A DNA stretch of 47,283 nt from a virus. A program made the translations under genes and the position numbers. Shown here in pieces: positions 9,405 to 37,117 of the stretch. The stretch covers positions 1 through 47,283 of the IMG/VR virus record IMGVR_UViG_3300030419_006277; one strand, written 5' to 3'. Position 1 is the first letter of the stretch. The number at the start of each line of letters is the position of its first letter. The notes under the pieces were generated by a model, which saw only the letters and a list, made by a program, of their open reading frames with translations, did no database searches and was not told the DNA's origin.

Positions 9405-9488
9405 GGCGGTGTTGTGTACAAATTAAAGTTAAGGTGCTTTGAAACACTGTCCATAGTGTGTTCACAATGTGTTATATACCCCCTCCCC

Positions 9489-9824: not shown

Positions 9825-9864
9825 GGTTAGTTAGTGCGGAATGATTAAGAAATAATTAAGAGAA

Positions 9865-10002: not shown

Positions 10003-10005
10003 GTT

Positions 10006-19667: not shown

Positions 19668-21191
19668 ATGGCAGGTACAAGTATTTACAGTGTTTATAGG
19701 CGAACAGCTAGAGCTGCAGCTAAACAGCATGTCGTTAAGAAAACTTCTAATATTGATATAGAACGTGCTCGTACAGATTTTGCATATTTTTGCGATGTAG
19801 TAGGAAATAAACCTCCTGCCGCCCATCATAAGGAATGGCATAAATATCTTTGTACAGGAGATGATAGTGAGTGTTTAACTGGTATTGCCGGTCCCAATAT
19901 TGATATTCTTGCTCCACGAGGTTCTGCTAAATCAACTGTTTTAGGTTTATTCACTGCTTGGTCAATTGGAGTGCATGCTTTAAAAAAGATGCCTCTGAAA
20001 ATCTTATATATTTCATACACGGTTGATGTTGCTCGTCCAAAAAGCGCTGCAATTAAGAGAATTCTTGAAGATAGCAAAGCTTATAAAGAGATTTTTCCAA
20101 CAGTAAAAATTGCTAAAGGAATTAATTCCAATGAATATTGGAGTATTGATTGGAAATTTGCAGGGATTAAATCTACTGGTGAGGAAGAGTTTACTGTTTG
20201 TTGCGCTGGATTAAAAGGTGCTGTGACATCTAAACGTTCTCATCTTTGCATTATTGATGACGCAATTAAAAGTGCTGATGACATAAAGAATAGAGATATT
20301 CGTCAAGCTATGGAAGATAACTGGAATGCAGTTATTGTTCCTACGATGTTTGAAGGTGCTAGAGCTATTTGTTTAGGTACTCGTTTCCGTCACGATGACA
20401 TCCATAATTCAACTTTTATTCCAGCTCACAATTGGGTCCAAATAGTACAGTCTGCGATTACTGTCGATAAAGAGGGGGATGAAATTTCTTATTGGCCGGA
20501 TATGTGGTCATTAGATTATCTTGCTGATAGAAGAAGGATTGCTCCAGTAGCTTTTAGTTTTCAATATCAAAATCAAATTGTACAAACGAGCGAGTTATCT
20601 CTTTCACCAGACTTAATTGTTAAGGGCGCCATTTCGACTAGTTTTGATGCTATGGGAGTTGGGGTTGATTTATCCGCCGGTGTGAGAGAACAGAATGATT
20701 ACACCGTTTTTGTGATGGGAGGTCGGGTTGGCAACAAAATTCATATTATTGATTGCAAACGTGTACGAGTTATGGGGAACTTAGAAAAATTAGATCTTTT
20801 AATGGAGATGATGGATGAATGGGGAATTATTCATAAGGATGGGAACAATTACTTTCCTACCGGAAGCAGCATTCATATTTGGTCAGAAGCAGTTGCATAT
20901 CAGGCTTCTTTAGAGGCAGATTTTAAAAGAATTTGTTTAGGTGATCAGGGTTTATACAACTTAATTTGGCATCCTGTCAAGGGTTTCCGTGGTGATAAAG
21001 TTGCTAGATTTAGAGGGATAATGGGCTTGTTTGAGCAGAGAAAAATTATCTTTAATAAGTTTCGAAAGTTTGGTCCATTGACAGATGAAATTGTGAATTT
21101 TGGGGTCAGTTCACACGATGACTGTGTGGATGCATTGGTATGGCTGTGTAATGGGTTAATGACCCGAGGAAAACTAGAGTTAGAGTATTGA
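19668..21191 (+). CDS. terL: terminase large subunit
   Basis: This is the ATP-driven packaging motor and nuclease that fills the capsid. Walker A is LAPRGSAKST at residues 81-90, and Walker B is LCIIDD at 193-198. A C-terminal RNase H-like nuclease starts at VGVDLSAG (Asp334), with the final acidic motif HDDCVDAL near 483-490. At 507 aa it has the usual length. The ATG lies just after GCTATGCTACGACC, with no Shine-Dalgarno sequence visible. Confidence 0.93.
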   Translation: MAGTSIYSVYRRTARAAAKQHVVKKTSNIDIERARTDFAYFCDVVGNKPPAAHHKEWHKYLCTGDDSECLTGIAGPNIDILAPRGSAKSTVLGLFTAWSIGVHALKKMPLKILYISYTVDVARPKSAAIKRILEDSKAYKEIFPTVKIAKGINSNEYWSIDWKFAGIKSTGEEEFTVCCAGLKGAVTSKRSHLCIIDDAIKSADDIKNRDIRQAMEDNWNAVIVPTMFEGARAICLGTRFRHDDIHNSTFIPAHNWVQIVQSAITVDKEGDEISYWPDMWSLDYLADRRRIAPVAFSFQYQNQIVQTSELSLSPDLIVKGAISTSFDAMGVGVDLSAGVREQNDYTVFVMGGRVGNKIHIIDCKRVRVMGNLEKLDLLMEMMDEWGIIHKDGNNYFPTGSSIHIWSEAVAYQASLEADFKRICLGDQGLYNLIWHPVKGFRGDKVARFRGIMGLFEQRKIIFNKFRKFGPLTDEIVNFGVSSHDDCVDALVWLCNGLMTRGKLELEY

Positions 21192-21219
21192 CGATTTAAA
21201 CTAGAGAAATCACATCCCA

Positions 21220-21402
21220 ATGTCACCCAGCTTTTACGAAATTGAGTTAGAACAGGATGCATACGGCTCTGCTGTTATTCCTCTTCCTGATGAATTATGT
21301 CATGATCTATCTATTCAACCTAATGAAAGGTTTGAGGTAGAAGTCGATGATGACACTATTACGCTTAAACGAGTACACGCTGGTTACGTCATTGATCAAT
21401 AG
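21220..21402 (+). CDS. 60-aa AbrB/MazE-like DNA-binding protein
   Basis: The sequence GSAVIPLPDELCHDL, then PNERFEVEVDDDTITLKRV, reproduces the SpoVT-AbrB swapped-hairpin pattern (strand, IPLP turn, helix, acidic strand, basic strand). Such proteins bind DNA as dimers and act as transcription regulators or antitoxins. No toxin partner is adjacent. Its place between terminase and portal suggests a phage regulator or a packaging-associated protein. Confidence 0.7.
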   Translation: MSPSFYEIELEQDAYGSAVIPLPDELCHDLSIQPNERFEVEVDDDTITLKRVHAGYVIDQ

Positions 21403-21421
21403 AGTACTTTGTTAAACAACC

Positions 21422-23677
21422 ATGATGAGCGATAGCAATAGTAAAGCTGAACTTGAATCTATCCTCAAGTCGGTTGTAAATCGTGACGGCACCGGACCAG
21501 CCGATACGATGTTGGTTAATGCCCATCTTTCCCAGATGAAGATGTTTGGGATAAGGCAGGGTGTAGAGTTTTTCCCCGAACAAGATAATTTTGGCTCTCA
21601 GAGATTTGATTTCATACAACAGGTAATTAAATTTAATAAATTAGATGCAAGATTAGACTCAATTTGGGACAGATTTTTAGCCTATGGAAAAGGTCTTTTC
21701 TATATTCGTCCAACGAAGAAGACTTATCGTATTTATTGGTTTGATAAAGATTCTTATCGTACTTATTATTCTCCAGAAGGTGATTTAGAAGAAGTTATCA
21801 TTATTTATCCTTATAAGGTAAAGTCTTCAAAAGGATTTCAAGGAGTTGGTTTAAATACAGATAAGCGTTATATGCGTTTACGCATCACTGCAACTGAAAT
21901 TGAAGAGTTTCATAGTGAACAAGAGATAACGTTTGATCAGGAGAATATGAATTTTGCAACTTTTGATAAGAAAGTTGTAGAAAACACAATGGAATTTATT
22001 CCTTGTGTAGAGGTGTTTAATAATCCGGACGCCTTTGGTACTGATGGCGCTGGTGAATTTGAATGGATAGCTAATCAAATTGTTGCTCATGATGAGATGG
22101 TTAAAAACATCAGAGCAAATTTATCTTTCTTTGGTAATCCAACATTACTTTCTTCTCGTCCTAAACAAGATATTGTTGAACAGGATGCTGACAGTGCAGT
22201 TCAGAGACCTAGTATTTCAAGTCAATCTGGATTCCAATCCAACTTCGATTTATCTAGTTCTACTTATAAGCAGGATCCGATTACTCGAACACAACCAGGT
22301 TACGTAGGAAGACCTGGAAGTGGTATGCGTGTACCACGAGTTATCGCCAATTTGGAGCCATCCGATCGTGTTGGTTTTATTACTCCTAATGCTGTTAGTA
22401 CAGATCAAGCTCGTTTTGCTGAGCAATTACGTTCTGAAATACGATTAGCACTTGGTGGTATTGATGATCTTTCAATTACCAATGTAACTGCAACTGAGAT
22501 TAAATCTGCTTATGGCCGTGTTAGTGCAACTGCTAAAAAGAAATGTTTACAGCTTTACACATATGGTGTTTGTAAGTGTTTTGAGTTAATCATTTTTCAG
22601 GAAGAACAGATTTTCCGTAAATCATTAGCTTATGCAGCTGGTATTAAGTATCCAGAACCTCCTGAAGATTTAGATGATCCTAAATTGCAGGAGAAATATG
22701 AAAAGCAGAAAAGTAAATACGAACAGAAATTACAGGATGCAATTGATATTGCTATTGATACTCAGGAAATACCTGACGGTGTTTTAGGATTAGCTCCTGA
22801 TGGCGATAGAACCGTGTTATGGCGGTGGATGGGGCCTGTTTATGAGGATACAGCGCAGGATAAATTGAATCAATCTATCTTTACTCGTAACCTACAAGAA
22901 TTAGGCGTTGATAGCATAGAAGCACTGAAGTATCTATTTCCTTCCAAAACTGATGATGAAATCGCGGGCATGCTCTCCGGTTTCCCATTCAGAATGGTAG
23001 GTGAGGTACAGAGGGCGTATTCCTCCTTTATTGACTTAATCAATCAAGAGATGAGGACTCCGCATCCACAGCAGCCTAATTTACCTATGGCTGCAGATCC
23101 TAGATTGGATCTAACTCCATTTTTATATAGAACACTCGAATCTCTCCAGAAGGAAGTAACTTATGCAGGACGCTACCGTAGCGCCGACCCAATCGGCACC
23201 CCAAGTATCCCAGACCCAGCCGAACAGCTACGTGGCTCCAGTAGCTCAGACAGCGGCCCAGGCACCAACAGTTGGTACAACACCACAGTGGGTGGCCCCC
23301 TCCCAGCCGACGGCGGCACCAATGCCACAAGTGCAAGCGCAGATGGGCGTACCGACTTACCAGTCGACCCCTACAGCTTCTTACCCCCAGGCACCCCAGG
23401 TAGCCCCACAAGCGGAGAACCCCTACAAGGAGGCGTTCAACAAGGTGGTGGGCGCCCTGAGTTCTCCAGTCCAATTCCCGTTCCAGGGTCAACCATCGAG
23501 TCAGGCCCAAACCGTCGACCCGGCGAGTTACGCTTCCCAGCAAGCTCCCCAATACAGCAACGCGGTAGCGCCGACCTCTATGCCTGGGACCAGCAACAGC
23601 CAGGACTTATCCAACAACTATTCCCAAACATCGCTGGAGATAACACCAGACCAGCTAAGGGCAAACGGAGTAAGTGA
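21422..23677 (+). CDS. portal protein with overprinted C-terminal extension
   Basis: The 751-aa protein follows the terminase, as portals do, and has the large-portal size seen in P22- and N4-like phages. The core runs to about residue 580. FGIRQGVEFFPEQ, YGKGLFYIRPTKKTYRIYW and the helical stem region with QLRSEIRLALGGIDDLSIT are consistent with a portal. Residues 581-751 are Gly/Pro/Ser-rich and low in complexity, and are read from DNA that also encodes the scaffold candidate in the +1 frame. The portal frame has no stop before 23675, so the extension must be translated unless a frameshift intervenes. Confidence 0.85.
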   Translation: MMSDSNSKAELESILKSVVNRDGTGPADTMLVNAHLSQMKMFGIRQGVEFFPEQDNFGSQRFDFIQQVIKFNKLDARLDSIWDRFLAYGKGLFYIRPTKKTYRIYWFDKDSYRTYYSPEGDLEEVIIIYPYKVKSSKGFQGVGLNTDKRYMRLRITATEIEEFHSEQEITFDQENMNFATFDKKVVENTMEFIPCVEVFNNPDAFGTDGAGEFEWIANQIVAHDEMVKNIRANLSFFGNPTLLSSRPKQDIVEQDADSAVQRPSISSQSGFQSNFDLSSSTYKQDPITRTQPGYVGRPGSGMRVPRVIANLEPSDRVGFITPNAVSTDQARFAEQLRSEIRLALGGIDDLSITNVTATEIKSAYGRVSATAKKKCLQLYTYGVCKCFELIIFQEEQIFRKSLAYAAGIKYPEPPEDLDDPKLQEKYEKQKSKYEQKLQDAIDIAIDTQEIPDGVLGLAPDGDRTVLWRWMGPVYEDTAQDKLNQSIFTRNLQELGVDSIEALKYLFPSKTDDEIAGMLSGFPFRMVGEVQRAYSSFIDLINQEMRTPHPQQPNLPMAADPRLDLTPFLYRTLESLQKEVTYAGRYRSADPIGTPSIPDPAEQLRGSSSSDSGPGTNSWYNTTVGGPLPADGGTNATSASADGRTDLPVDPYSFLPPGTPGSPTSGEPLQGGVQQGGGRPEFSSPIPVPGSTIESGPNRRPGELRFPASSPIQQRGSADLYAWDQQQPGLIQQLFPNIAGDNTRPAKGKRSK

Positions 23678-24212
23678 GACTAGCCTTCAGGTAATTGATC
23701 ATTTTGGTCCTAATGCTGCTGAAGATTTAAATACTTATTCTTGTCAGCTTGAAGATCACTTAATACAAACTAATCAGCAATTAGGTGAGTCAGTTGCTCT
23801 TCTTAAGGAGCTTTCTGCTGAGCATAAAGCTTATGAAAGGATTCTTACTGATCCTGATGTTTTAGCTGATTACACATGTGAATTCTTTGGTGAAAACGGT
23901 CCTTACCCTGTTTCTCAGAAAGGGCAAGCTCCACAAGGACAGCAAGTTGGGCAGCAGTTCCAGAATGCAGATAGATCTCACACAATACCTACTGCTCCTG
24001 CTCCTGCGGCTAAGCCTGCGACTACAGCTCCTGCTCCTCAGCGTCCTTCAATGCCTGCTCCTCCAGCTCCTCAGCCACAAGGGAATCCAGAAGATTTCTG
24101 GAATAACTTTGGCAACGCTGCTGATAGGGACCCACAGAACGCTTGGCGTTATCTGAATGCTGCACAGCAAAATCCTGAAGTTTTCCGTAACAAGCTTCTT
24201 GTAATGGAGTGA
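23163..24212 (+). CDS. 349-aa Gln/Pro-rich protein, candidate capsid scaffold
   Basis: It begins at ATG 23163 inside the portal gene, in the +1 frame, and overlaps it for 515 bases. Residues 1-171 are Pro/Gln/Ala/Val-rich and disordered. Residues about 175-245 form a helical core (SCQLEDHLIQTNQQLGESV, KELSAEHKAYERILTDPDV). A Pro/Ala linker follows, then a short helical C-terminus (WRYLNAAQQNPEVFRNKL), the kind of end that binds capsid subunits. Position between portal and major capsid gene and this layout suggest a scaffolding protein. No protease motif is seen. Confidence 0.75.
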   Translation: MQDATVAPTQSAPQVSQTQPNSYVAPVAQTAAQAPTVGTTPQWVAPSQPTAAPMPQVQAQMGVPTYQSTPTASYPQAPQVAPQAENPYKEAFNKVVGALSSPVQFPFQGQPSSQAQTVDPASYASQQAPQYSNAVAPTSMPGTSNSQDLSNNYSQTSLEITPDQLRANGVSETSLQVIDHFGPNAAEDLNTYSCQLEDHLIQTNQQLGESVALLKELSAEHKAYERILTDPDVLADYTCEFFGENGPYPVSQKGQAPQGQQVGQQFQNADRSHTIPTAPAPAAKPATTAPAPQRPSMPAPPAPQPQGNPEDFWNNFGNAADRDPQNAWRYLNAAQQNPEVFRNKLLVME

Positions 24213-24232
24213 TTTAACTCCTCATTAAATAA

Positions 24233-24253
24233 GGGGTAGCAAAATGCTGCCCC
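24233..24253 (+). terminator. 8-bp hairpin after the scaffold gene
   Basis: GGGGTAGC (24233-24240) and GCTGCCCC (24246-24253) pair with one G-U around the loop AAAAT, 21 bases after the scaffold stop. A U-tract is lacking, so it may attenuate or stabilise transcripts rather than terminate them. Confidence 0.45.
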
Positions 24254-24269
24254 AACACTTATTCCCCTA

Positions 24270-24704
24270 ATGGCAAAAAAGAAAGCTAGAGATAGAGCAG
24301 ACGAGTTTATAGCTAGTCTAGGAACAGCCGGTGGGCCTATTGGTTCTCCGGGGTTAATTAGTTTTGGTGGTTCTGATATTCAAGCTCAGATTTTTGCTGG
24401 GAATAGTGATCAATACGCTCCAATTAGGATGCGTCAAGGAGAGTTAGGAGTAGGTAATCCAAATGCAGAGGTTCCTCCAATGCCTCAGGATTTAGATGCT
24501 TCTTACTTAAAGTTAAATTTACCTGGTTCTCCATTACCAGCTAATGCTTTACTTTCTCCTCAGAATCAGATGGCTGCAGAATTTACTCAGAATCAAATTG
24601 CAGCCAATGAGCAGCTCTATTTAAGAAATGCTATGAATCCTGTTGGTTTAATGAAATTGCCAGTAGGTAACTTCCAATCTCCTAAGAAAAAAGGTAGCCG
24701 CTAA
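24270..24704 (+). CDS. 144-aa hypothetical capsid-region protein
   Basis: A basic start (MAKKKARDRADEFIASL) leads into a Gly/Pro-rich region (GGPIGSPGLISFGGSD), a segment with QIFAGNSDQYAPIRMRQGE and a Gln/Asn-rich middle, and a basic end (SPKKKGSR). It lies between scaffold and capsid genes and is coupled to the next gene. A minor head protein is likely from position. Confidence 0.55.
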   Translation: MAKKKARDRADEFIASLGTAGGPIGSPGLISFGGSDIQAQIFAGNSDQYAPIRMRQGELGVGNPNAEVPPMPQDLDASYLKLNLPGSPLPANALLSPQNQMAAEFTQNQIAANEQLYLRNAMNPVGLMKLPVGNFQSPKKKGSR

Positions 24705-24898
24705 TGAACACCGCTAAAGCACAAGAAGCTGTAGACAAGTCACTTGAACATAAGCTTATAGCGGCAGCTATGGCAGAGGCTGCAGAGGAACCAATTGGAG
24801 GTGCAACTATGCAACCTAAAGATGGATTTGTTAATCCATATGGACGTATAGGAGCGATGCCCCCAACCGAATATTCTTTGACAAATAGTCTGAATTAA
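24704..24898 (+). CDS. 64-aa hypothetical protein
   Basis: It starts at ATG 24704, sharing one base with the upstream stop (TAATG). An Ala-rich helix (LEHKLIAAAMAEAAEEPIG) is followed by a Pro/Gly-containing tail. It is the last gene before the capsid leader. It is not recognised. Confidence 0.55.
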   Translation: MNTAKAQEAVDKSLEHKLIAAAMAEAAEEPIGGATMQPKDGFVNPYGRIGAMPPTEYSLTNSLN

Positions 24899-24913
24899 TC
24901 AGTTCTTTAGAGA

Positions 24914-24925
24914 TAAACTTAGTAA
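24914..24925 (+). promoter_or_regulatory. shared box TAAACTTAGTAA
   Basis: TAAACTTAGTAA lies in the capsid leader and is repeated exactly at 45214-45225. A one-base variant (TAAACTTATTAA) is on the minus strand at 11291-11302. All three are intergenic. A TATAAT follows further downstream in this leader. A phage promoter element is possible. Confidence 0.35.
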
Positions 24926-24960
24926 AGTCTGATTATTAAGTCATATTATAATTAATTTTA

Positions 24961-25010
24961 ATGGAATTTAGGTTCCATATATGGAAGATTTGATCCTCTT
25001 TTCAGAGGAT
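24961..25010 (+). promoter_or_regulatory. capsid-gene leader with two hairpins
   Basis: ATGGAA (24961-24966) pairs with TTCCAT (24973-24978), and ATCCTCT (24993-24999) pairs perfectly with AGAGGAT (25004-25010) around TTTC. The 158-base leader upstream of the most highly expressed gene probably controls transcript stability or translation. Confidence 0.45.
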
Positions 25011-25056
25011 TTAATTTTCAGGTATCAGCAAATCTCATAGCGCTGAAAAAACCCCA

Positions 25057-26202
25057 ATGTTTATTGATAACGATTTCCCTAAGCTGCTGGGTGCGGAACT
25101 ATACCGCCCTCATCCAGCTTATATCGTGGAGATGGCCTCTGAGCCGGTCGTCGTCCATGACTTCACAAAACAACCGGGTCAAACTGTTCAGCTAGATCGT
25201 TACCGTTTCTTCGGTAACCCTGGCACGAAGACAAGCCGTGAGCGTACCCAGGATCAAACCATTGGTACAGCAAACAGCAGATCTATCGTTAAGGACAAAG
25301 TACTTGTATCTCTTCGTGAGTATACAGGTCCTGCCGACCCTAATAACTCAAATCTCCCTAGCACCTTCAAAATTGCTCGTGAGACTTTGATGACTGCTCA
25401 GCGTTTACTGCTGGATACTGGGAACCTAAATATGTTCCACCAGTCCATCGGTTCGCTGACTCTGCTCGATGATTATCGCAGATGGCGCGATCGGGTGTTC
25501 TTGGACGAACTGTTCAAATCAGAATCCCGTGGTCAGTCCTCTGACTCACAAGGTGGTTACTACTATCCTAACGGAAAGTCTAAGCCAACTTCAACAACTC
25601 TTACTGCTTATACCGCTACAGAATATGCTTCTGAGCGCTTTAAGTTCAACGTAAAAACTGACCTTCTCGAAGTAGTTAAAGCTCTTCGTAAGCGTCACGT
25701 ACCAGTCTTCGCTGACGGCTACTATCGTTGCATAGCAGATCCTTCACTTATGAAAGATCTACGTGCTGATCAAGGCTTCCGTGAAGTTGCACGTTACCCA
25801 GGTTTAGGACAAGGCAGCCCATTAATGCCTGCTACTGCTCCTAACCAAGCCATCTATGGTGGCGGTCAGTACGGCCAAGCTCAGTTTGTCGCTGGTGAAC
25901 CAGTGATGCCTTCAGGCTTTGTTTTTGAAGGTGTAAGATTCTTCGAATCTACAAACTTCCCAGCTAAAACTATCACGGTCGACATTGGTGATGGTGCCGG
26001 TGCAGTCTCTAAATCCACTCCTCCTGCCCTATTCTTCGGGCCGCAGGCTATTGGTGTTGGTATTGGTGGTCCTAACGCTCAAGTCCTTATTAACAATAAT
26101 GATGACTTCAGCCGCTTCATTATTCTCATTTGGCAGCTATACGCTGGCTTTGCGAACTTGAACAAGGACTTCGTTACTACCGCTTTCACCATTACTGAGT
26201 AA
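25057..26202 (+). CDS. major capsid protein, N4 gp56-like
   Basis: This 381-aa protein has the features of the N4-gp56 major capsid family (HK97 fold), including DGYYRCIADPSLMKDLRAD at residues 220-238 followed by a RYPGLGQG turn. The N-terminal QTVQLDRYRFFG arm and KDKVLVSLREYTGP segment also fit. Codons are richer in C and G at third positions than in neighbouring genes, as expected for high expression. It is preceded by a structured leader and followed 15 bases later by a gene with a strong ribosome-binding site. Confidence 0.85.
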   Translation: MFIDNDFPKLLGAELYRPHPAYIVEMASEPVVVHDFTKQPGQTVQLDRYRFFGNPGTKTSRERTQDQTIGTANSRSIVKDKVLVSLREYTGPADPNNSNLPSTFKIARETLMTAQRLLLDTGNLNMFHQSIGSLTLLDDYRRWRDRVFLDELFKSESRGQSSDSQGGYYYPNGKSKPTSTTLTAYTATEYASERFKFNVKTDLLEVVKALRKRHVPVFADGYYRCIADPSLMKDLRADQGFREVARYPGLGQGSPLMPATAPNQAIYGGGQYGQAQFVAGEPVMPSGFVFEGVRFFESTNFPAKTITVDIGDGAGAVSKSTPPALFFGPQAIGVGIGGPNAQVLINNNDDFSRFIILIWQLYAGFANLNKDFVTTAFTITE

Positions 26203-26216
26203 GGAGGTATTTAACA

Positions 26217-27041
26217 ATGGCAGCTTACAAAGAAAACGCTGGGGCCATTCTTAACCCCGGTAACCAGATAAACCGTCTGTCCTCCTACAACACTGAAGGT
26301 GTTTATGGTTGGCCAGGAGTTGAAGCTTTTGAACTTATTGGTTACGCCAAAGTAAGTAATAAGGCAGCTGATAAAGCTAGCTACAAGAGCTTCTCCGTAA
26401 CGATTCCTTCACCTGATCGTAGGGTTGGAGATCGTGTACGCAATGACCGTACTAGCTGTGTCGTTCAGGCTTCTGCCGATCGTCCAGCTTATATTTACGG
26501 TGCTTCTATTGCTATCGCTCAGGATATTCCTTCTGCAGCTCAGGATCGCGCAGGCTTCCCTGCTGACCCTGTAACAGCTGATATTTATGGAACCAACACT
26601 GAAATTATTCAGTTTGGCCCTGATAACGGTGGCTCACCTTATGGTGTTCCTGCAACTCAGCTTAATGGTTTAGCTGCAGCAACTTCATACTTGACAATTG
26701 GTGCTACAACCAAGATTGTTCAAGGTACCCGCGACACTACAGTTGGAAACCTTCCATTCTGGACATCCGTTAGTAGCTCAATTGCTGCTGCTGACGCTGC
26801 TGACTCCATGATGTACAAGGTTGTAGCTGATACAACTTTCAAGATCTATAACACCAACGGCATTACACAAACTGCTGTTAACGGTGACGGACTTTACATC
26901 AGCGATGCTGATGCTGACGCAAGTAGGGCTGCTTACATCCTTACTCGTGTTAACTATCTCCGTCCTGCATTCGGTGTTAACTGGAATGATATCCAGGGAT
27001 TCATTGATTTTGCTTCTCAAGTAGGCGGTAACGACGAATAG
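26217..27041 (+). CDS. 274-aa capsid-associated protein (decoration or minor head)
   Basis: It starts at ATG 26217 after the strong ribosome-binding sequence AAGGAGGT and shares the capsid gene's codon preference, implying abundant production. It is beta-rich with Thr/Ala/Asp loops (GATTKIVQGTRDTTVGNL), which suits a decoration protein on the shell, but it has no family signature I can name. A terminator follows at 27074-27098, so the capsid pair may be one transcription unit. Confidence 0.65.
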   Translation: MAAYKENAGAILNPGNQINRLSSYNTEGVYGWPGVEAFELIGYAKVSNKAADKASYKSFSVTIPSPDRRVGDRVRNDRTSCVVQASADRPAYIYGASIAIAQDIPSAAQDRAGFPADPVTADIYGTNTEIIQFGPDNGGSPYGVPATQLNGLAAATSYLTIGATTKIVQGTRDTTVGNLPFWTSVSSSIAAADAADSMMYKVVADTTFKIYNTNGITQTAVNGDGLYISDADADASRAAYILTRVNYLRPAFGVNWNDIQGFIDFASQVGGNDE

Positions 27042-27073
27042 AACGCTCTATAATTTAAGAATATAGGTGAATT

Positions 27074-27098
27074 AGCGGGTCCTAGTGATCCGCTTTTT
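27074..27098 (+). terminator. factor-independent terminator after the capsid pair
   Basis: AGCGGGTC (27074-27081) pairs with GATCCGCT (27087-27094), with one G-U, around CTAGT, and is followed by TTTTT. It is the clearest terminator in the window. Confidence 0.8.
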
Positions 27099-27159
27099 CA
27101 TATTTACGGTTAAGATTTGGTAGGGTTATTCTCATAGACGAACTTAATTTGTACTGTTC

Positions 27160-27600
27160 ATGTTGTATCAATACAAGCAAACTGGCGGACTAGTAGAGGT
27201 CATAGCAAAGCATGGTGATGGCATCATGATGTGTATTGATGCTCAAGAAGATGTACTTTATGTAGATGAATCAGAATTAGTTCCTCAATTAGAGGCTACT
27301 AACGAGAAGATAAAAGCTGAAGAACGTTTAAGTGCAGATTTAGCAGCTGATGGGGTTAAACCAGCTAAACCAACAAAACGCGAGACGTTCCCAGTAGATG
27401 TACGAGTGAATATCAATACAGCAAGTGCTCGTCAAATCGCCGATGCTTTACCCGGTGTAGGTTTGAAAACTGCTAGAGATATAAAAGATTTACAAACAGC
27501 TCAGTCTGGTGAAAGATTTGTAAAACTTGAACAACTACGTGGAATAAAGCGTGTTGATTGGGATCAAATTTTTGAGGAGAACTTAGTTCGCGTAGACTAG
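27160..27600 (+). CDS. 146-aa protein with helix-hairpin-helix DNA-binding domain
   Basis: Residues 82-137 closely follow the ComEA-type helix-hairpin-helix layout: VNINTASARQIADALPGVG (83-101), then KTARDIKDLQ, and EQLRGIKRVDWDQI at the end. That module binds the DNA backbone without sequence specificity. The N-terminal 60 residues look like a small beta domain plus an acidic helix. Its location between capsid and head-tail genes suggests it touches packaged DNA at the connector. Confidence 0.7.
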   Translation: MLYQYKQTGGLVEVIAKHGDGIMMCIDAQEDVLYVDESELVPQLEATNEKIKAEERLSADLAADGVKPAKPTKRETFPVDVRVNINTASARQIADALPGVGLKTARDIKDLQTAQSGERFVKLEQLRGIKRVDWDQIFEENLVRVD

Positions 27601-27628
27601 ATGTTAGGTCAGTTTTGTATTGTAGTTA

Positions 27629-28108
27629 ATGAAGCTTGATACCTATTTAAAATCGAAGATACGTTGGCACCTTGGGTATAATTTAACTTCAGTACCTGCT
27701 GGTGACATTGCACGTCTTGAAGAGGCATTAGATAATGTTCAAGACACTTTCTGGTATGACAAAATTGTCGAACAGATTGGTCGTTGTGATGAAGCAGAGA
27801 AACGAACTGATATGACTGGCACCATTAATAATGGAACAGTTCCTAGAAGTCGAGTTGAAAGTATAGCTGGTGACGTTGACCGTACTGTTGCAACTTCTGA
27901 TTTTAAAGAGACACTGAAAACATGGACAGAGATTTACATGTTTGAATGTGATCGCTTAGCTTTACATTTATATGTTCCAAATTATCGGAATCCTATGCAG
28001 GCTAGGTATCGTTTTGAAAGAGAAGGTGCTGAGTTTATCCAGGCTTTACCAGGGCCAGCAGACATTGCAGTTGGTACGAGATTGATGCTTGCTGAAAGCT
28101 GGCGGTAG
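27629..28108 (+). CDS. 159-aa head-tail connector candidate
   Basis: The protein is helical at the start (YLKSKIRWHLGYNLTSVPAGD) with a conserved-looking FWYDKIVEQIGRCDEAEKR block and a C-terminal alpha/beta region (MQARYRFEREGAEFIQAL). Its size, helix content and place after the capsid genes match head-tail adaptors (gp6/gp4-like). I recall similar sequences in cyanophages but cannot name the family. Confidence 0.55.
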   Translation: MKLDTYLKSKIRWHLGYNLTSVPAGDIARLEEALDNVQDTFWYDKIVEQIGRCDEAEKRTDMTGTINNGTVPRSRVESIAGDVDRTVATSDFKETLKTWTEIYMFECDRLALHLYVPNYRNPMQARYRFEREGAEFIQALPGPADIAVGTRLMLAESWR

Positions 28109-28154
28109 TAGCATTTCCCCCTGTTATTCTAAGTAGTAGACTAGTTTCAATTTC

Positions 28155-28496
28155 ATGGCGATAACATACTTTCAAGACACAATATTCACACAGGACACAA
28201 CCTTAAGTGCGCCAGGTGATGGAACTGCGTTGCAAGTTGCTCAGAATAACTTTTTTGCCACGAAAGATTATACTTTGATTGCGGTAGTTGCTTCTATTGG
28301 TACGAATGTAAAAGTTAGGTTAGATGGAAGTATTGATGGAACAAATTACGCACCTATTATTGCTGAAAAGACTATTAGTGCAGATGGCTCACACGCTTAT
28401 TCTGTTTCAGGTATACCAGTGAAATGGATTAAACCTGTATTTACAAGTGAGAATGGTGGTTCTCCTACTGTTACTTTCCATTTAGCAGCTATTTAA
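28155..28496 (+). CDS. 113-aa beta-rich tail or head-completion protein
   Basis: The small all-beta protein (TLIAVVASIGTNVKVRLDGSI and IPVKWIKPVFTSENGGSP) has the pattern of the short beta-sandwich proteins common in cyanophage tails. The start is ATG 28155 after a short leader. A paralogue-like protein of similar length lies at 36124. The function is structural by position. Confidence 0.6.
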   Translation: MAITYFQDTIFTQDTTLSAPGDGTALQVAQNNFFATKDYTLIAVVASIGTNVKVRLDGSIDGTNYAPIIAEKTISADGSHAYSVSGIPVKWIKPVFTSENGGSPTVTFHLAAI

Positions 28497-28497
28497 G

Positions 28498-28773
28498 ATG
28501 TCTGTTAAGCCACGTACTAGGCTTGGTTATCATTTTGGGGTTAATAGAAAATCTACACCAAATGAGAGAAGCGATGGTGTAGGAGGATCTCGAGAATCTA
28601 ATTTTATTGAAGGGCGTAGTCGGCCTAGAATGGCAGGAGAGATTAATATTTTCACTGCGGAACCTGATTATTTAAGACCTCCTATTAAAGGACTTTGGTT
28701 AAAACAACCTTCTCTTAGAACATCTACTATTCTGCGTGGTTCTCCAATACCTGACGAAACTGATTCTTTTTAA
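28498..28773 (+). CDS. 91-aa basic hypothetical protein
   Basis: This protein is basic and Gly/Pro/Arg-rich (RTRLGYHFGVNRKSTPNE, GRSRPRMAGEINIF) with little hydrophobic core, so it is probably a small virion or assembly protein. It starts one base after the preceding stop. It is not recognised. Confidence 0.5.
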   Translation: MSVKPRTRLGYHFGVNRKSTPNERSDGVGGSRESNFIEGRSRPRMAGEINIFTAEPDYLRPPIKGLWLKQPSLRTSTILRGSPIPDETDSF

Positions 28774-28778
28774 TTACC

Positions 28779-29144
28779 ATGGGACAAAAGAGAGACGGAA
28801 AATTTCTTGTTAGAGAACCTCAAGGGGGTGGATTCTCTGCAACTACATCTCCGATGGTTGCTGATATTTTTGAAAAGGCACCTCAAGAACAAGCTGTAGG
28901 ACAGGCAACTCCTCAAGTTGGAAGTGATTTGGTTAGGAGTGTCGTTAGTGATAAGTCAGGATTACAGCAAGAGAACGCAGACCCCGAATTAAGAATGGCT
29001 GCTGATATTTTTGATTCTGAGTTAGCGAAGAGCTTGGCATTAGAAAGTAGTAAAACAAAATACGGTCCAGGGCAAATATCTAAATCCCCAGGTGTTGGTT
29101 CTTACCTAGGGGAAGCTTCTTACCCAGCTGGGCCGACAAGCTAA
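28779..29144 (+). CDS. 121-aa hypothetical protein
   Basis: A polar Gln/Ser-rich protein with a repeated PMVADIFEKAP / RMAADIFDSEL pattern (about residues 24-34 and 68-78), suggesting an internal duplication. It ends in a Gly/Pro tail and is coupled by TAATG to the next gene. Function unknown. Confidence 0.5.
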   Translation: MGQKRDGKFLVREPQGGGFSATTSPMVADIFEKAPQEQAVGQATPQVGSDLVRSVVSDKSGLQQENADPELRMAADIFDSELAKSLALESSKTKYGPGQISKSPGVGSYLGEASYPAGPTS

Positions 29145-29308
29145 TGACTAAGAAACGTTCAATGCCACCGGAAATATTGGATTATTTTAAGAAGAAGAAT
29201 GGAAAAAACTCAGAGAAAAAAGATGATAATGAGCGCCGTAAAGAGGCAGTTACGAAATCTAGAGTTAGGTTAGAAAAAAAAGGCAAGGAGAAGAAAGAGG
29301 ATCAATAA
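29144..29308 (+). CDS. 54-aa Lys-rich protein
   Basis: It starts at ATG 29144, sharing a base with the upstream stop. The sequence opens MTKKRSMPPEILDYFKKKNG and continues as a Lys/Glu-rich helix. The MPPxxLxYFKKK opening is one I associate with small cyanophage structural-region proteins of unknown function. Confidence 0.6.
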   Translation: MTKKRSMPPEILDYFKKKNGKNSEKKDDNERRKEAVTKSRVRLEKKGKEKKEDQ

Positions 29309-29354
29309 AAAATCCTTCAGTTAGAATAACTTTTAAGCCTATCTGTAGATAAAC

Positions 29355-30143
29355 GTGTCAAGCACTAGTTCAAATAAACAACCGTTAATGGTCGATCGTC
29401 CAGCGACGAATTCCACGTTGGTAACTGTGGCATCTGGACAATCCTTTTTAACAAGTCTTACCCCTACGGCTGTTGGTAATGCAACTAAAGTTTTTGACTG
29501 TGACTCAGCTTTAACGGATACTTCAATTAGTGGTGCTTATATAGATGAGATCTGGCTTCGTTATAGCAAAAGAGTTGTTGAATATATGGACGCGAAGGCA
29601 GCGACCACAGGCACTTATTCTGCAAACAGTACGACAGCCACAATAACTATTGCTGGTGGGCACGATTTAGAGGTAGGTCAAGAAGTTTGGCTAAACTTTA
29701 CAAGTTATAGTTCCGGAGCTGTCCCAATTGATGGTAAATTTACTGTTGTAACAATAACTCCAACAATATTTACTGTTACAATTCCATCATTAGGCGGTAC
29801 CATCACAGGAAATGTAAGTGTACAAACTCCTATTGATTTTTGTTTCTACCTTGTTGGTACTGGCACCATTACCAACATTAATCAGTTTTTCCCACTATTT
29901 GTTGCAAGTTTGCCCGCTACAACAACGTATCAAACATGTAGTTTGACGTTAAAAGGAGTTTTACCTTATATCAATCACCCGGTAGCACAGTCTGGTAATA
30001 ATGTTTCTTCATCGAATAGCAATATTCTTCCTAAGCAAAGAGGATTAATGTTGCAGAGAGGACAGGCTTTGTATTGTGCGACTAGTGGAGCCACTGCATT
30101 GACTAATGGTTTCTACTGTAACGTTCAAGGTGGATATTACTAA
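29355..30143 (+). CDS. 262-aa tail protein with one HGL-type beta module
   Basis: The start is GTG 29355. Residues 87-156 contain a beta module (TATITIAGGHDLEVGQEVW, then FTVVTITPTIFTVTI, ending TGNVSV) closely related to three modules in the next protein. The rest is beta-rich with a Gln/Asn linker. Position and pairing with the 771-aa protein suggest a tail-tube or nozzle component. Confidence 0.65.
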   Translation: MSSTSSNKQPLMVDRPATNSTLVTVASGQSFLTSLTPTAVGNATKVFDCDSALTDTSISGAYIDEIWLRYSKRVVEYMDAKAATTGTYSANSTTATITIAGGHDLEVGQEVWLNFTSYSSGAVPIDGKFTVVTITPTIFTVTIPSLGGTITGNVSVQTPIDFCFYLVGTGTITNINQFFPLFVASLPATTTYQTCSLTLKGVLPYINHPVAQSGNNVSSSNSNILPKQRGLMLQRGQALYCATSGATALTNGFYCNVQGGYY

Positions 30144-30152
30144 ATTAAAGTA

Positions 30153-32468
30153 ATGGCATTTGATGTCGGTGGTTTTAATTCTCCATCGAAGACGAATTTT
30201 AATGCTGATTTTTCAAAAGGTTTTGATGATAGGAATCAATTTAGTAAACCTGATGATTGGAAAGTAGATAATTCAAATCCCTATACTGCTGCAAAAGGTT
30301 ATAGGGTTAAATTTGCGAGTGAAGTTAAGTTTTACAATCAAGATGGTTTATGGCCACGATGGAGGCGTGGTTACGAAATATATACCATGACTCAGAGCAT
30401 TTTAGGGTCAACGGCAAATGAAAGAAGTAAGAGAGGAGATTATCGACTTTATTTTACGTTTCAGCAATATCCAGGTATTTTTATTCCTGCTCGTATATTT
30501 ACTTTTCCTTCAACAAATCAGGAGTTAGGTGAACATATTGTTGGTATGCGGGATACTGATGGTTTTAATTTTTACGATTTTGGTTTGCCTATTTTAGATG
30601 TACGTTATTTAGGGAATGCTGTAACCGCAACGTATAGTCAAAGTGGGACGACAATTGTTGTAACAAAGAATGAACATGGTTTATATCCAGGAGATAATGT
30701 TTATTTAGATTTTTCTAGTGGTAGTGGTGTTGATGCGACATTAAGTATTGTTAGTAAAACACAGAATACTTTTACTCTTACTGCAGCAGCGCCAGCAACA
30801 ACTTCTGGAAACGTTACGTATTACGTTTCTACAGCATTTACCGATCCACGATGGACAGTTAGCCGAGTTAAATTACGTTATTTACCAACTGAAGTTTCTT
30901 TCTTTGCCGGTGAAAGATTAGCGGATCGGATCATTGAAAAAGATCCTGGTATCTCTTCTACTTATTCTCGAACTGCTTCGACAGTTACTGTTACATGCTC
31001 TGCAGCGCATGGACTCTCAAGTGGTAATACAGTGTTCCTAGATGTTAGTACAGGCGATGTTTCTTCTGGTAGATATGTTGTTACTGTCACTGGTGCTAAT
31101 TCATTTACTGTCACTACAATTACCAGTGGAAGTACTTCTGGAAATGTTACTCTTAATCGCTTATTAAGGGGGTATCGTTATGACGATTATGTAGGGTATA
31201 CCGTAACAGGTTCGGATGCTACTACTAATGAATTAATATTTCAGCGAGACGATAGTTATGGTGCAAGTACTACTGATAATGTTGCAAAAACAACCGTACC
31301 AGCTCATCGAGGTTTTGCGATTGGTAGATATTTAACTACAGAACTGAGATGGCAATGTTCTTGTCAAGATTTCTCAAGACGTGATTCCTATGATCTATTT
31401 AGTGAATTAACTCATGAGAGATTTCCTGTTACTAATATCCACAGTACAAAACCTGGTAATGTTTTACAACCTGATGGAACTTTAAGTGACTCAAGGGATA
31501 TTCCAGGTACGTTCAGCGATTTAGGCTATCTCACAATAAATAATTTCTATCAGCTTCCAAGTTATAAAGATACAAAAACCAAATCGTTTCAAAACTTAAT
31601 GTACTATCAATTGAGATGGTGTAAGCATATTTATGCTGCCATGTTCTCTTTAGTCCATGATGAAGGTAATGAGCCTTTAAAGTTATCTGCTAAATATACT
31701 CAGTCAGGTCCAAACATAACAGTTGAATTCGATAATCATGGTTTAGATACTAATACTAAGATTGATCTGACATTTACGAGTGGCGATGCTGTTTCTGGTG
31801 AATACACTATTACTTCAGTCCCTGATGTTAATAGCTTTGTTGTTATTTATCCTTTTAGCAATATTTCTAGTGGTTATTGCACTGTAAGTAACTTAAAGAA
31901 GCACGAGTATGTAGGAGCTTGGTTAAACGAGCCGAATGATGAGCCTATTGGTGCCGGACGAGAGGTTTTTGAACAAAGATTTGCAAAAGAGAAGGCAAAG
32001 TTAAAGGAGTCAATTGAAATATTGAAGCTATTCCAAAGACATACAAAATGGAGTGGAAACAAAGAAGTCACTGGGGATTTCAACTTACCTCAAAATGTTG
32101 CAGACTTTGACCCATCGATGATCGGAATGACTTTGACTGATGGTATAAAACGTGATTCTGAAGGGAATTTAAGTCGAAGTGGTGCAACTACTAATACTAC
32201 AAATCGAATGATTGCTTTAGTTAATAAATTATTTAATAAATCTCCTACTTTGATTGAAGATATAAAATTTGGATTGATTAGTCAGCCTTTAAGTCAATAT
32301 GTTGAATCTTTTGAGTCAGGTTTAGTTAAAGGAGGAGAGTTTTTTAACGGTGATCCTGTAGAAACTGCTTCATCAGTTAGTACTATTGACGGAAGTACTT
32401 ATGCTCCAGATACTGATCAAGATACAGTAGTAGATGCTGGTTTATACAGAAATACAGCTCTTCCTTAG
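30153..32468 (+). CDS. 771-aa tail protein with three HGL modules and a SWIM-like zinc motif
   Basis: This is the largest tail gene. Three beta modules occupy about residues 159-223, 269-333 and 513-578; each has an HGL or HGLxxG turn and ends near SGNV or SGYC. Between the second and third modules are C402-S-C404 and C490-K-H492, a SWIM-like CxC...CxH zinc signature split by 85 residues. Domains of the HGLxxGDxV type occur in phage tail proteins. I infer a tail-tube or nozzle protein with an internal zinc site. Confidence 0.7.
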   Translation: MAFDVGGFNSPSKTNFNADFSKGFDDRNQFSKPDDWKVDNSNPYTAAKGYRVKFASEVKFYNQDGLWPRWRRGYEIYTMTQSILGSTANERSKRGDYRLYFTFQQYPGIFIPARIFTFPSTNQELGEHIVGMRDTDGFNFYDFGLPILDVRYLGNAVTATYSQSGTTIVVTKNEHGLYPGDNVYLDFSSGSGVDATLSIVSKTQNTFTLTAAAPATTSGNVTYYVSTAFTDPRWTVSRVKLRYLPTEVSFFAGERLADRIIEKDPGISSTYSRTASTVTVTCSAAHGLSSGNTVFLDVSTGDVSSGRYVVTVTGANSFTVTTITSGSTSGNVTLNRLLRGYRYDDYVGYTVTGSDATTNELIFQRDDSYGASTTDNVAKTTVPAHRGFAIGRYLTTELRWQCSCQDFSRRDSYDLFSELTHERFPVTNIHSTKPGNVLQPDGTLSDSRDIPGTFSDLGYLTINNFYQLPSYKDTKTKSFQNLMYYQLRWCKHIYAAMFSLVHDEGNEPLKLSAKYTQSGPNITVEFDNHGLDTNTKIDLTFTSGDAVSGEYTITSVPDVNSFVVIYPFSNISSGYCTVSNLKKHEYVGAWLNEPNDEPIGAGREVFEQRFAKEKAKLKESIEILKLFQRHTKWSGNKEVTGDFNLPQNVADFDPSMIGMTLTDGIKRDSEGNLSRSGATTNTTNRMIALVNKLFNKSPTLIEDIKFGLISQPLSQYVESFESGLVKGGEFFNGDPVETASSVSTIDGSTYAPDTDQDTVVDAGLYRNTALP

Positions 32469-32470
32469 TT

Positions 32471-32902
32471 ATGGCAGTACAGATTTTATCTAGGCGTTCG
32501 AGTGTTCTTTATGATCGGCCTTTTCCTATTCGTCTTGGTGTTGGTGAGTTGGCTATTAATAATAATGCCGGGGATCCGGGATTATTTTTTATTGATAATA
32601 CCGCCTCTCCTTCAACAGCTCTAATAAAGGCAGGTCCTACGCATGTTGGTAATACGGCTCCAAATGTTTCTCCAGCTGGTTATACAAGCCCCAGCAAGGG
32701 TGAATCTTGGTTAGACACAGCTAGTACTCATATTCTTAAATTTAATGACGGTACTGCATGGAAAACTGCAAAAGCCGTGGCTTCAGTAGATGCGGGGTTT
32801 CCTGCGAATCCAGTAGATGGGCAATTACATTTCAATACTTCTACAAGTAAATTGAATATGTATCGTCTGTCTACTACATCTTGGGTTGTAATTGGACCTT
32901 AA
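32471..32902 (+). CDS. 143-aa tail fibre-associated protein
   Basis: A beta-rich protein with the recurring fibre segments GDPGLFFIDNTASPSTAL and DGQLHFNTSTSKLNMYR, a pattern common in cyanophage tail proteins. It starts 2 bases after the 771-aa gene. Its stop shares bases with that of the convergent minus-strand gene (TTAA at 32899-32902). Confidence 0.6.
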   Translation: MAVQILSRRSSVLYDRPFPIRLGVGELAINNNAGDPGLFFIDNTASPSTALIKAGPTHVGNTAPNVSPAGYTSPSKGESWLDTASTHILKFNDGTAWKTAKAVASVDAGFPANPVDGQLHFNTSTSKLNMYRLSTTSWVVIGP

Positions 32903-33144
32903 CGGTGAGTAAGGAGATGATCAAGAATTCGATCCAATTTATTATGGACCGCTTGCATTTCCCGTAAAAAATCTTCTTTTAACACGTAATCACAAACAAC
33001 GCGGTTTTGTAGGTTATCTAGATCACGTTCGATATTTTCGAATCGTTTGTCTAGTTTTTTATTGAAGTTTGAAAGTGCCCGAGATAATCCAGCAAAAGCA
33101 CCGATGCTTCCTGATAAAACGGCAGCAATAAGTTCCGGCGACAC
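32899..33144 (-). CDS. 81-aa membrane/coiled-coil protein on the opposite strand
   Basis: The start is GTG 33142-33144 after a clear ribosome-binding sequence (AAAGGAGA). An N-terminal membrane helix (LIAAVLSGSIGAFAGLS, residues 5-21) precedes a long coiled coil (KLDKRFENIERDLDNL, then REMQAVHNKLDRIL). I recognise this as a protein present singly and antisense in cyanophage tail regions; its role is unknown. Its stop overlaps the convergent gene's stop by four bases (TTAA). Confidence 0.8.
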   Translation of the reverse strand: MSPELIAAVLSGSIGAFAGLSRALSNFNKKLDKRFENIERDLDNLQNRVVCDYVLKEDFLREMQAVHNKLDRILDHLLTHR

Positions 33145-33212
33145 TTTTTTTCTCCTTTCTTATATTCTAAAGGATTTTACAAATTAAAATATAAAATAGT
33201 ACGCAGATTGAC

Positions 33213-33743
33213 ATGGCAACAGGATATGAACCAAATATAGAGGGAGCTATAACGGTTCTCGTAGATCTAATGACTGCAAATGGGTTTACGATGAGTCGTC
33301 AGCCTTATGAGCCGAATTATCGCGGTTTAGTAGATGCACTCATTGATTTAAAAGAAGGTTTTCCAACTTTCTCTCCAATTCGAGTTGGTTTTGACGCTAC
33401 TACTTTTGAGGCCGTCGCTGATAAAGACGCTTTATATATGCGTACTTCTGATGGGAAAGTAGGTAAAGCCACTGCTACAAGTGGTAGTTCAGAAGCTGCA
33501 AATGTTGTCGGTTTTGCTGATTCTGCAAAAGGTGCAGATGAAACAGTAAAAATTGTAGTTGTTGGGATAAAAACAATGAGTGGATTAGACGCAGGTGATT
33601 TATATTACTTATCGCCTACAACTGCAGGTGCAATAACAACAACAGCCCCTAGTGGTTCAGGACAAGCAGTGACTCGTTTAGGAGAAGCAGCTACAGCCAC
33701 TGATTTTAGTATCCAACTTGAACCTCCGATCCTCTTAGTATAA
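33213..33743 (+). CDS. 176-aa tail fibre/knob protein A, tandem paralogue
   Basis: It opens with two successive copies of a short unit: GYEPNIEGAITVLVDL and PYEPNYRGLVDALIDL (residues 4-19 and 31-46). A domain ending GLDAGDLYYLSPTTAGAI and LGEAATATDFSIQLEPP follows. The following gene repeats the same domain order, so the pair is a tandem duplication. The DUF2190-like beta core suggests a small capsid- or fibre-decorating protein. Plus-strand tail context. Confidence 0.65.
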   Translation: MATGYEPNIEGAITVLVDLMTANGFTMSRQPYEPNYRGLVDALIDLKEGFPTFSPIRVGFDATTFEAVADKDALYMRTSDGKVGKATATSGSSEAANVVGFADSAKGADETVKIVVVGIKTMSGLDAGDLYYLSPTTAGAITTTAPSGSGQAVTRLGEAATATDFSIQLEPPILLV

Positions 33744-34213
33744 TGCCAAATCCCGGAGTTATTGATAATGAACCGTATGCACCTAATTCTGAGGGTCTAA
33801 CAGGCGTACTGATAGATCTAAAAGAAACAATGGCTGATAAACAGACTTATTCTGTTATTGGTTATCAGTGCATAACATTTGAAAATGTTACACAGGGGGA
33901 AGCACTTTATTGTCGAAGTAGTGATGGGAAAGTAGGTAAAGCTATTGCTGATGATACTTTTGATAAAGCTCTTGTTGCTGGGTTTGCTCAAACAACTAAG
34001 TCAACAGGTCAATCAGTAAATGTAATTGTCAGAGGATTAATGGCTACCTCTGGATTAGATGCGGGAGATGACTATTATCTTTCTGCTGCATCAGCGGGTG
34101 CAATAACAAAAACACCTCCATCTGGATCTGGTGAGTATTTAACACGTATTGGTGAGGCTGGTACTTCTACTCAATTAATTATTAAATTAGAGCCACCTAT
34201 TCTTATAAGTTGA
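33743..34213 (+). CDS. 156-aa tail fibre/knob protein B, tandem paralogue
   Basis: It is coupled to protein A by TAATG and aligns with it through PYAPNSEGLTGVLIDLKE near the start, CRSSDGKVGKA, GLDAGDDYYLSAASAGAI and RIGEAGTSTQLIIKLEPP at the end. It has a single copy of the N-terminal unit that protein A has twice. The two probably form similar trimeric or pentameric beta structures. Confidence 0.65.
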   Translation: MPNPGVIDNEPYAPNSEGLTGVLIDLKETMADKQTYSVIGYQCITFENVTQGEALYCRSSDGKVGKAIADDTFDKALVAGFAQTTKSTGQSVNVIVRGLMATSGLDAGDDYYLSAASAGAITKTPPSGSGEYLTRIGEAGTSTQLIIKLEPPILIS

Positions 34214-34288
34214 AGATTTAAGTCATCGTAAGATAGAGGTAAGTAGAAACTTTCTATTCATAAGGACTCCAAGGGCTTGGGTTAAAGT

Positions 34289-35716
34289 ATGGCAGTTAGA
34301 GATCCACTAATAATTGTTTCTGGATTATTTCAGGAATTAAATACTTCTTCTGATAAGTTAAATCTTGATGGAAATACGACTGCTGATTTAGCTGAGAATA
34401 CTAATCTTTATTACACCAATGCCAGAGCACGTGGCGCTGTTTCTGCAACTGATTCAGGTGGTTTAGGCAGTTTTACATATACATCTGGAACAGGGGTATT
34501 TGAATATACAGGACCTTCTGATGCAGATGTGCGAGGAAAGGTTAGTGTTGCTTCAGGTGAAGGATTAACTTATAACTCTTCTACTGGAGTATTGGGAACG
34601 AGTGCAATCCCTAATACGCAATTAGCTAATAGTTCTGTAACAATAGGATCAACAGCTGTAGCTCTAGGAGCAACTGTAACAAATTTCACTGGAATTGGAT
34701 CTTTAACTTCTACAGTTAAAGTTTCATCAGATGTTCTAGAAGCAAGTAGTTACGTAAGAGTTGGAACTGACGGAGAAGTAGGCGGTGTTCGTTTAGAAAA
34801 ATTATTTAGTACCACTAAATCTGCAGTAACTTTTGAAGGTGCTACAGCAGATGATTTTGAAACATCTCTAACAGTAACTGATCCGACAGCTGATAGAACT
34901 ATCACACTACCTGATGCAAGTGGAACTGTTGCCTTAACAAGCGATCTTGTTGTTACTGCCAGTAGTACAACTACTTTTTCAAATAAAAGTATTGCTCTAG
35001 GAAGTAATACAGTTACGGGTACGACTGCTCAATTTAATACAGCGTTAACAGATGGAGATTTTGCAACTTTAGCAGGTACTGAAAGTCTTACAAATAAAAG
35101 TCTTACTGCTCCAGTTCTGAATGCTACTTCGGCTACTGTCGCAGGCAAGATTTTATTTAAAGAAGGTACAGATAATGGAACAAATACAGTAACTTTGTTA
35201 GGAGCTGCTTCAACTGCAGATGTAACTATTACTCTCCCAGCGGAAACAGGCACGGTATTAACAAGTGCATCTTCTATTGCAAATGGAAATTTAGCTAATA
35301 GTACTGTAACTATAGGATCTTCAGCTGTTTCTCTAGGTGCGACTTTATCTTCTATTGCTGGTTTAACTTCTTTAACGTCTGCAGCAGTGGTTACAGATGA
35401 TGATGGATTTAGAGTTCGAGATAATACAGATAATACTAAACAATTAGCTTTTGAATGTTCATCAATTGCGACAGGAACTACTAGAACATTAACTATACCG
35501 GATCAAAGTGGAACTATTGCATTAGTTGGCGGTGGTGCAACTGAATTCTTAGATAATGTATTTAGAGTCCAAGACAATGCAGATAATTCAAAAGAATTAG
35601 CTTTTGAATGTTCAGGAATTTCTAGTAGTACTACTCGTACAATGACAGTGCCGAACGAAAATGGAACCATTTCCACTGAAAGTTTTGCAACTGCAATCGC
35701 AGTGGCATTAGGATAG
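34289..35716 (+). CDS. 475-aa tail fibre protein with internal repeats
   Basis: A Ser/Thr/Gly/Asn-rich repetitive beta protein, with TNLYYTNARARGAVS near the start, typical of cyanophage tail fibres. The internal duplications QLANSSVTIGSTAVALGAT / NLANSTVTIGSSAVSLGAT and DGFRVRDNTDNTKQLAFEC / NVFRVQDNADNSKELAFEC show it grew by segment copying. It likely forms a trimeric fibre shaft; the C-terminus is short and may bind a partner. Confidence 0.75.
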   Translation: MAVRDPLIIVSGLFQELNTSSDKLNLDGNTTADLAENTNLYYTNARARGAVSATDSGGLGSFTYTSGTGVFEYTGPSDADVRGKVSVASGEGLTYNSSTGVLGTSAIPNTQLANSSVTIGSTAVALGATVTNFTGIGSLTSTVKVSSDVLEASSYVRVGTDGEVGGVRLEKLFSTTKSAVTFEGATADDFETSLTVTDPTADRTITLPDASGTVALTSDLVVTASSTTTFSNKSIALGSNTVTGTTAQFNTALTDGDFATLAGTESLTNKSLTAPVLNATSATVAGKILFKEGTDNGTNTVTLLGAASTADVTITLPAETGTVLTSASSIANGNLANSTVTIGSSAVSLGATLSSIAGLTSLTSAAVVTDDDGFRVRDNTDNTKQLAFECSSIATGTTRTLTIPDQSGTIALVGGGATEFLDNVFRVQDNADNSKELAFECSGISSSTTRTMTVPNENGTISTESFATAIAVALG

Positions 35717-35720
35717 ACTT

Positions 35721-36122: not shown

Positions 36123-36123
36123 T

Positions 36124-36462: not shown

Positions 36463-36474
36463 GGGGGTAAAAAA

Positions 36475-37116: not shown

Positions 37117-37117
37117 A

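Follow-up and report, generated by a model that had tools for sequence, protein, structure and literature searches.

The 3' end of the portal gene in the DNA studied here very probably encodes two proteins at once, the portal tail and, in the +1 frame, the beginning of a protein that is probably the scaffold. Comparisons with related sequences argue that the two genes constitute a genuine and long-lived out-of-frame pair in the widespread S-EIV1-like cyanophages. The window, a stretch of 47,283 nucleotides, is part of an 87-kb virus record (IMGVR_UViG_3300030419_006277), in which the genes are arranged in the order terminase-portal-scaffold-capsid, with a small ORF (24270-24704) that also precedes the capsid gene. 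The shared block specifies a low-complexity portal tail of approximately 170 residues and the first 171 residues of the scaffold (Table 1). A re-examination of the ORFs reproduced exactly the coordinates, the +1 relation, the lengths and the 515-nt overlap of the original prediction. The overlap is regarded as real because every relative checked retains it and both frames are under selection.

Table 1. Features of the portal-scaffold region in the window
Feature	Coordinates	Strand	Remarks
Portal protein gene	21422..23677	+	751 aa, stop codon included
Portal core, single-coding	21422..23162	+	+1 frame neutral: dNN/dNS 1.07 (0.77-1.60)
Internal Shine-Dalgarno AAGGAAG for the scaffold ATG	23150..23156	+	Shine-Dalgarno in 81/81 relatives
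+1-frame stop TAA, two codons 5' of the scaffold ATG	23157..23159	+	78/81 relatives
Probable scaffold gene	23163..24212	+	349 aa, stop codon included; +1 frame relative to portal
Dual-coding overlap	23163..23677	+	515 nt; selection on both frames
Scaffold-dominated segment, scaffold residues 85-112, ENPYKEAFNKVVGALSSPVQFPFQGQPS region	23415..23498	+	11 invariant scaffold residues, both lineages
Portal C-terminal segment ending in QPGLLxQLFPN	23498..23629	+	Motif at 23597-23629
Scaffold gene remainder, single-coding	23678..24212	+	Third-position divergence 0.32 vs 0.13 in overlap

Conservation of the overlap among relatives

The comparison covered 80 IMG/VR relatives of the window, 80 relatives of Synechococcus phage S-EIV1, S-EIV1 itself and a MAG contig, together with a further scan around the MAG contig. 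The overlap is kept in all 163 sequences of the first set (window, S-EIV1 and MAG contig included), and the further scan revealed it in 76 loci, 66 of them with distinct portal regions and a freshwater sub-lineage among them. Some contigs recur between the scans; counting identical sequences once leaves 160 distinct overlap sequences. In each of the approximately 240 related loci examined, portal and +1 frames are simultaneously open; the shared length is 509-641 nt, apart from two contigs whose ends truncate it, and a homologous scaffold ORF is present in all relatives examined. The portal of S-EIV1 (KJ410740) is 53% identical to that of the window, and its overlap measures 554 nt. Within the annotated phage collection, S-EIV1 is the only relative of the window, and no outgroup without the overlap was found there. 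Neither a portal stop near residue 580 nor an indel, the two observations named with the original prediction as speaking against it, was found in the approximately 240 loci, and the recurrence of the same overlap in these loci rules out an assembly error or indel. Open stretches in the antisense and third frames of the block differ widely among the relatives and are not conserved. The distance correlation between portal and scaffold, taken as a measure of co-inheritance, lies above that between portal and capsid in one lineage and below it in the other.

Selection on the two frames

When synonymous codons are permuted, the +1 frame of this one sequence remains open in 17% of cases, and when codons are resampled according to the usage in the core, in 2%; taken by itself, the open frame is therefore weak evidence. 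After the removal of sequences with >95% identity, 81 remained, in which substitutions were counted by codon position. At 10-15% core divergence, the portal third-position divergence falls from 0.314 in the core to 0.094 in the overlap, while the divergence at the first and second positions rises there. The scaffold third positions behave correspondingly, with a divergence of 0.319 downstream and 0.133 in the overlap. The strong synonymous suppression in the portal gene starts at the scaffold ATG. The suppression of synonymous sites to which the original prediction had pointed as a check is thus present in the relatives.

An OLGenie-style test, in which each single difference was classified according to which of the two proteins it changes, was applied to 34 independent close pairs. 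The overlap rates were 0.0073 for differences that change both proteins, 0.098 for portal only, 0.056 for scaffold only and 0.34 for neither; alignment errors could affect these rates, as the overlap proteins are of low complexity and contain indels, but this risk was limited by using close pairs only and requiring neighbouring bases to be unchanged. The resulting dNN/dNS of the scaffold in the overlap is 0.074 (95% interval, 0.050-0.102), and the dNN/dSN of the portal is 0.129 (95% interval, 0.082-0.194), in comparison with the neutral value in the +1 frame of the portal core, which served as the internal control (Table 1). Differences that create a stop in the +1 frame are absent from the overlap (0 for 2248 possible mutations), as opposed to 106 in the core (7720 possible). 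Portal-silent differences that change the scaffold are 6.7-fold rarer in the overlap than in the core, whereas scaffold-silent differences are not rarer. Each of the two lineages, analyzed separately, gives the same result of purifying selection on both frames. As judged from these substitution patterns, both protein products in the overlap are under purifying selection. The selection test on the 34 pairs rules out a chance open frame. A nucleic-acid element as the origin of the silent-site conservation in the overlap is also rejected, given that scaffold-silent sites evolve at 13 times the rate of sites that alter both proteins. Codon preference leans slightly toward the portal as the ancestral frame (63 of 81 sequences), but this is offset by the stronger constraint on the scaffold.

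Two further features lie upstream of the overlap. A milder drop in silent divergence extends over 22847-23160, approximately the last 300 nt before the overlap, and is stronger in S-EIV1-like than in window-like phages. Within this interval, a 22-nt element, TTGATAGYATWGAAGCACTGAA (22908-22929), is located inside the portal gene, 255 nt 5' of the scaffold ATG, as a single copy in the window; it is identical in 151 of 163 loci, while about half of the synonymous codons differ elsewhere.

Base composition of the shared block

The GC content amounts to 0.60 in the overlap and 0.38 both in the remaining portal gene and in the 250 nt past the portal stop. The best-fitting GC block spans 23166-23606. 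Its left edge coincides with the scaffold ATG. The original prediction had the sequence return to AT-rich exactly at the end of the overlap, which is slightly too strong, as the right edge falls about 70 nt before the portal stop. The slope of scaffold third-position GC against genome GC is 0.42 in the overlap and 1.4 downstream, and base drift is accordingly damped in the overlap. Since the overlap contains no site at which both proteins have a free third position, the GC-rich island can be explained without a special element. Thus, the selection test, the codon-position rates and the GC slopes all support the earlier proposal of a dual-coding block whose joint constraint shapes its composition.

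Division of the block between the two proteins

The constraint is not distributed evenly along the block. In the scaffold-dominated segment (23417-23497 in this count), the scaffold NN/NS ratio is 0.03 and the portal is nearly relaxed, with an NN/SN ratio of 0.63; the conserved scaffold stretch around KEAFNKVVGALSSPVQFPFQG is specified by this segment. In the adjoining part, 23498-23581, it is the portal frame that dominates, with an NN/SN ratio of 0.08 versus an NN/NS ratio of 0.22 for the scaffold. Farther along, the QPGLLxQLFPN motif contains the invariant portal residues Q726, P727, G728, L733, F734 and P735. Judged by these ratios, such a segment-wise division is the pattern expected if each product needs a different part of the shared DNA. 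Each product would own one segment, with a scaffold helix in the middle of the block and a portal motif near its end, and both tails look largely disordered, which may make the double code affordable.

Start signal of the scaffold gene

The scaffold ATG is present in all 81 non-redundant sequences and is preceded, at a spacing of 6-8 nt, by the Shine-Dalgarno variants AAGGAG (40 sequences), GAGG (23) and AAGGA (18). This signal is encoded by Lys-Glu codons of the portal and is kept by alternating synonymous codons: AAAGAA, which lacks a Shine-Dalgarno sequence, makes up 66% of the Lys-Glu codon pairs elsewhere in these portals but occurs here in none of the 81 sequences. The scaffold signal is also stronger than the weak site of the portal itself. 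In the genes nearby, the signal is mostly weak or missing. Across 19668-38655, most structural genes are without a Shine-Dalgarno sequence, and strong ones are few (scaffold, 26217, 36475 and 37118).

The invariant ATG, the conserved Shine-Dalgarno sequence and the +1-frame stop just upstream favor internal initiation rather than frameshifting as the most likely way in which the scaffold starts, as read from the sequences. The original prediction had allowed for a frameshift, which the same three features render unlikely. The portal and the scaffold would then be made separately: some ribosomes would begin the portal at 21422, from a weak or Shine-Dalgarno-less site, and others would enter at 23163, within the portal gene, to make the scaffold from a strong one. 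Portals consist of 12 copies, and scaffolds of hundreds. From these copy numbers, a greater output of scaffold is expected, and the strong site would suit the much larger demand for it in comparison with the 12-subunit portal.

Identity of the two proteins

The first gene product matches the PHROG phrog_20475, "virion structural protein", with an E-value of 3e-220 and, weakly, the portal family phrog_104 (E = 0.025), while the Pfam SPP1_portal profile is matched in 4 of 45 relatives (best E = 0.009). A Foldseek search with its predicted structure, a low-confidence model (pLDDT 44), yielded 15 PDB matches with E <= 0.001, all of them phage portals, at TM-scores of approximately 0.2-0.3. A portal fold is thus supported for this product by the structure search, and the position of its gene in the terminase-portal-scaffold-capsid order is in keeping with it.

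The second gene product has no match in Pfam, PHROGs or the PDB. In its low-confidence structural model (mean pLDDT 50), the N-terminus is mostly disordered, helices are predicted at residues 87-99 and, over a longer stretch, 185-229, and three short helices form the C-terminus. Its gene sits between those of the portal and the major capsid protein, and the order is the same in S-EIV1. Typical scaffolds are encoded between portal and capsid, and have a characteristic length, a disordered arm with a long helix and a small helical C-terminus. The gene order and the predicted helices make it probable that the second product is the scaffold.

Alternative readings and a possible role in assembly

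Several other interpretations of the locus were considered. If only the portal frame were coding in 23163-23677, the scaffold would begin past the portal stop, and the open +1 frame would be a by-product of GC-rich, stop-poor sequence. The synonymous permutations of the single sequence (17% open) agree with such an origin, and long same-strand overlaps annotated in bacteria are mostly annotation errors (PMC2478687). The scaffold dNN/dNS of 0.074, the 6.7-fold rarity of scaffold-changing, portal-silent differences relative to the core, the lack of any stop-creating change in the 34 pairs and the conserved ATG and Shine-Dalgarno sequence nevertheless make it extremely improbable. Conversely, the portal might end functionally near residue 580, its read-through being tolerated junk over a functional scaffold frame. 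The scaffold is more constrained overall, the portal is nearly relaxed in 23417-23497, and the solved portals among the Foldseek matches mostly have approximately 390-560 residues, all of which would fit. We nevertheless regard this as most unlikely in view of the portal dNN/dSN of 0.129 (0.082-0.194), the portal-dominated segment 23498-23581, the invariant QPGLLxQLFPN motif and a portal frame that in all relatives continues to about the same end. A programmed +1 frameshift could also join portal and scaffold into a fusion that serves nucleation, in which case the scaffold frame would be used mainly for the second half of the fusion; the +1 relation of the frames permits it, and the selection data are compatible with it. 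However, the ATG and the Shine-Dalgarno sequence are conserved, and because 78 of 81 sequences have a +1-frame stop two codons 5' of the ATG, the shift would need to fall downstream of the scaffold start and to skip it, which renders a fusion very improbable.

A separate question is whether, granted genuine dual coding, the second gene specifies another head-assembly protein, either a minor capsid or an internal protein. The absence of any sequence or profile match to known scaffolds leaves room for this possibility, as does the further small ORF before the capsid gene. It appears unlikely, though far from negligible, given the portal-capsid position, the length and the predicted arm, long helix and C-terminal helices, which are typical of scaffolds. 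Returning to the portal and scaffold pair, the overlap may plausibly help to co-regulate or nucleate the assembly of procapsids. In a more specific and rather doubtful form of this idea, the shared DNA would physically lock the two proteins together, an internal start on actively translated portal mRNA setting both their ratio and their local co-synthesis, and binding between the portal tail and the scaffold arm nucleating one portal per procapsid.

Relation to known overlaps and to existing annotation

In phage lambda, the scaffold Nu3 is produced by internal initiation within the upstream head gene C. Nu3 shares the reading frame of C, whereas the scaffold here is read in a different frame and extends beyond the stop of the upstream gene. 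The classic cases of long out-of-frame dual coding are the A/B, D/E and K genes of the microvirus phiX174, morphogenesis genes included. The genome of phiX174 is a 5.4-kb ssDNA short of space, in contrast to the 80-90 kb dsDNA of the tailed phages described here. The overlapping genes of phiX174 are also cited in the literature (PMC8227390). The Rz/Rz1 spanins of lambda resemble the present pair in that cooperating phage proteins are encoded on the same strand and out of frame, often +1, that one product is Pro-rich and of low complexity, and that annotation frequently fails (PMC6139136). Unlike this pair, however, they are lysis genes for shorter proteins with an architecture that varies between phages; the genes in the window belong to head morphogenesis and share a terminal overlap of 0.5-0.64 kb in every relative examined. 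The pair is not a two-component spanin, composed of an inner-membrane protein and an outer-membrane lipoprotein, as its genes are a portal-like and a head gene.

S-EIV1 resembles the window in its homologous portal and scaffold; its overlap uses the same frame, and the context of its scaffold start (ATG at position 7742) is the same too. In its GenBank record, in contrast, the scaffold of 325 residues is reduced to the C-terminal 133 (AHV82225), with the start placed at an in-frame ATG beyond the portal stop, and no overlap is annotated. Prodigal permits an overlap of at most 60 bp (PMC2848648), which explains how the overlap was missed in annotation, and not one of 715 same-strand overlaps >60 bp passed as genuine in a survey of bacterial genomes (PMC2478687). 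The present overlap is approximately 8-10 times that limit and occurs in a genome without evident space shortage, and standard annotation strips the conserved half of a head-assembly protein. In ocean viromes, about 3.3% of the cyanophage content belonged to the S-EIV1-like lineage (PMC5332604); with S-EIV1, a cultured relative is available for direct testing. No earlier report of an out-of-frame portal/scaffold overlap was found in the limited open-access literature; long dual-coding genes are known, but this pair, missed in GenBank, appears to be new.

Two other genes of S-EIV1 show unexpected features. The terminase gene (S-EIV1 positions 2535-5075) carries an intein-like insert of approximately 330 residues (residues ~201-530), which the 507-residue terminase of the window lacks. 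In the major capsid gene (9239-10465), an intact ORF extends over approximately 9308-10459, where GenBank lists an antisense CDS and a truncated CDS.
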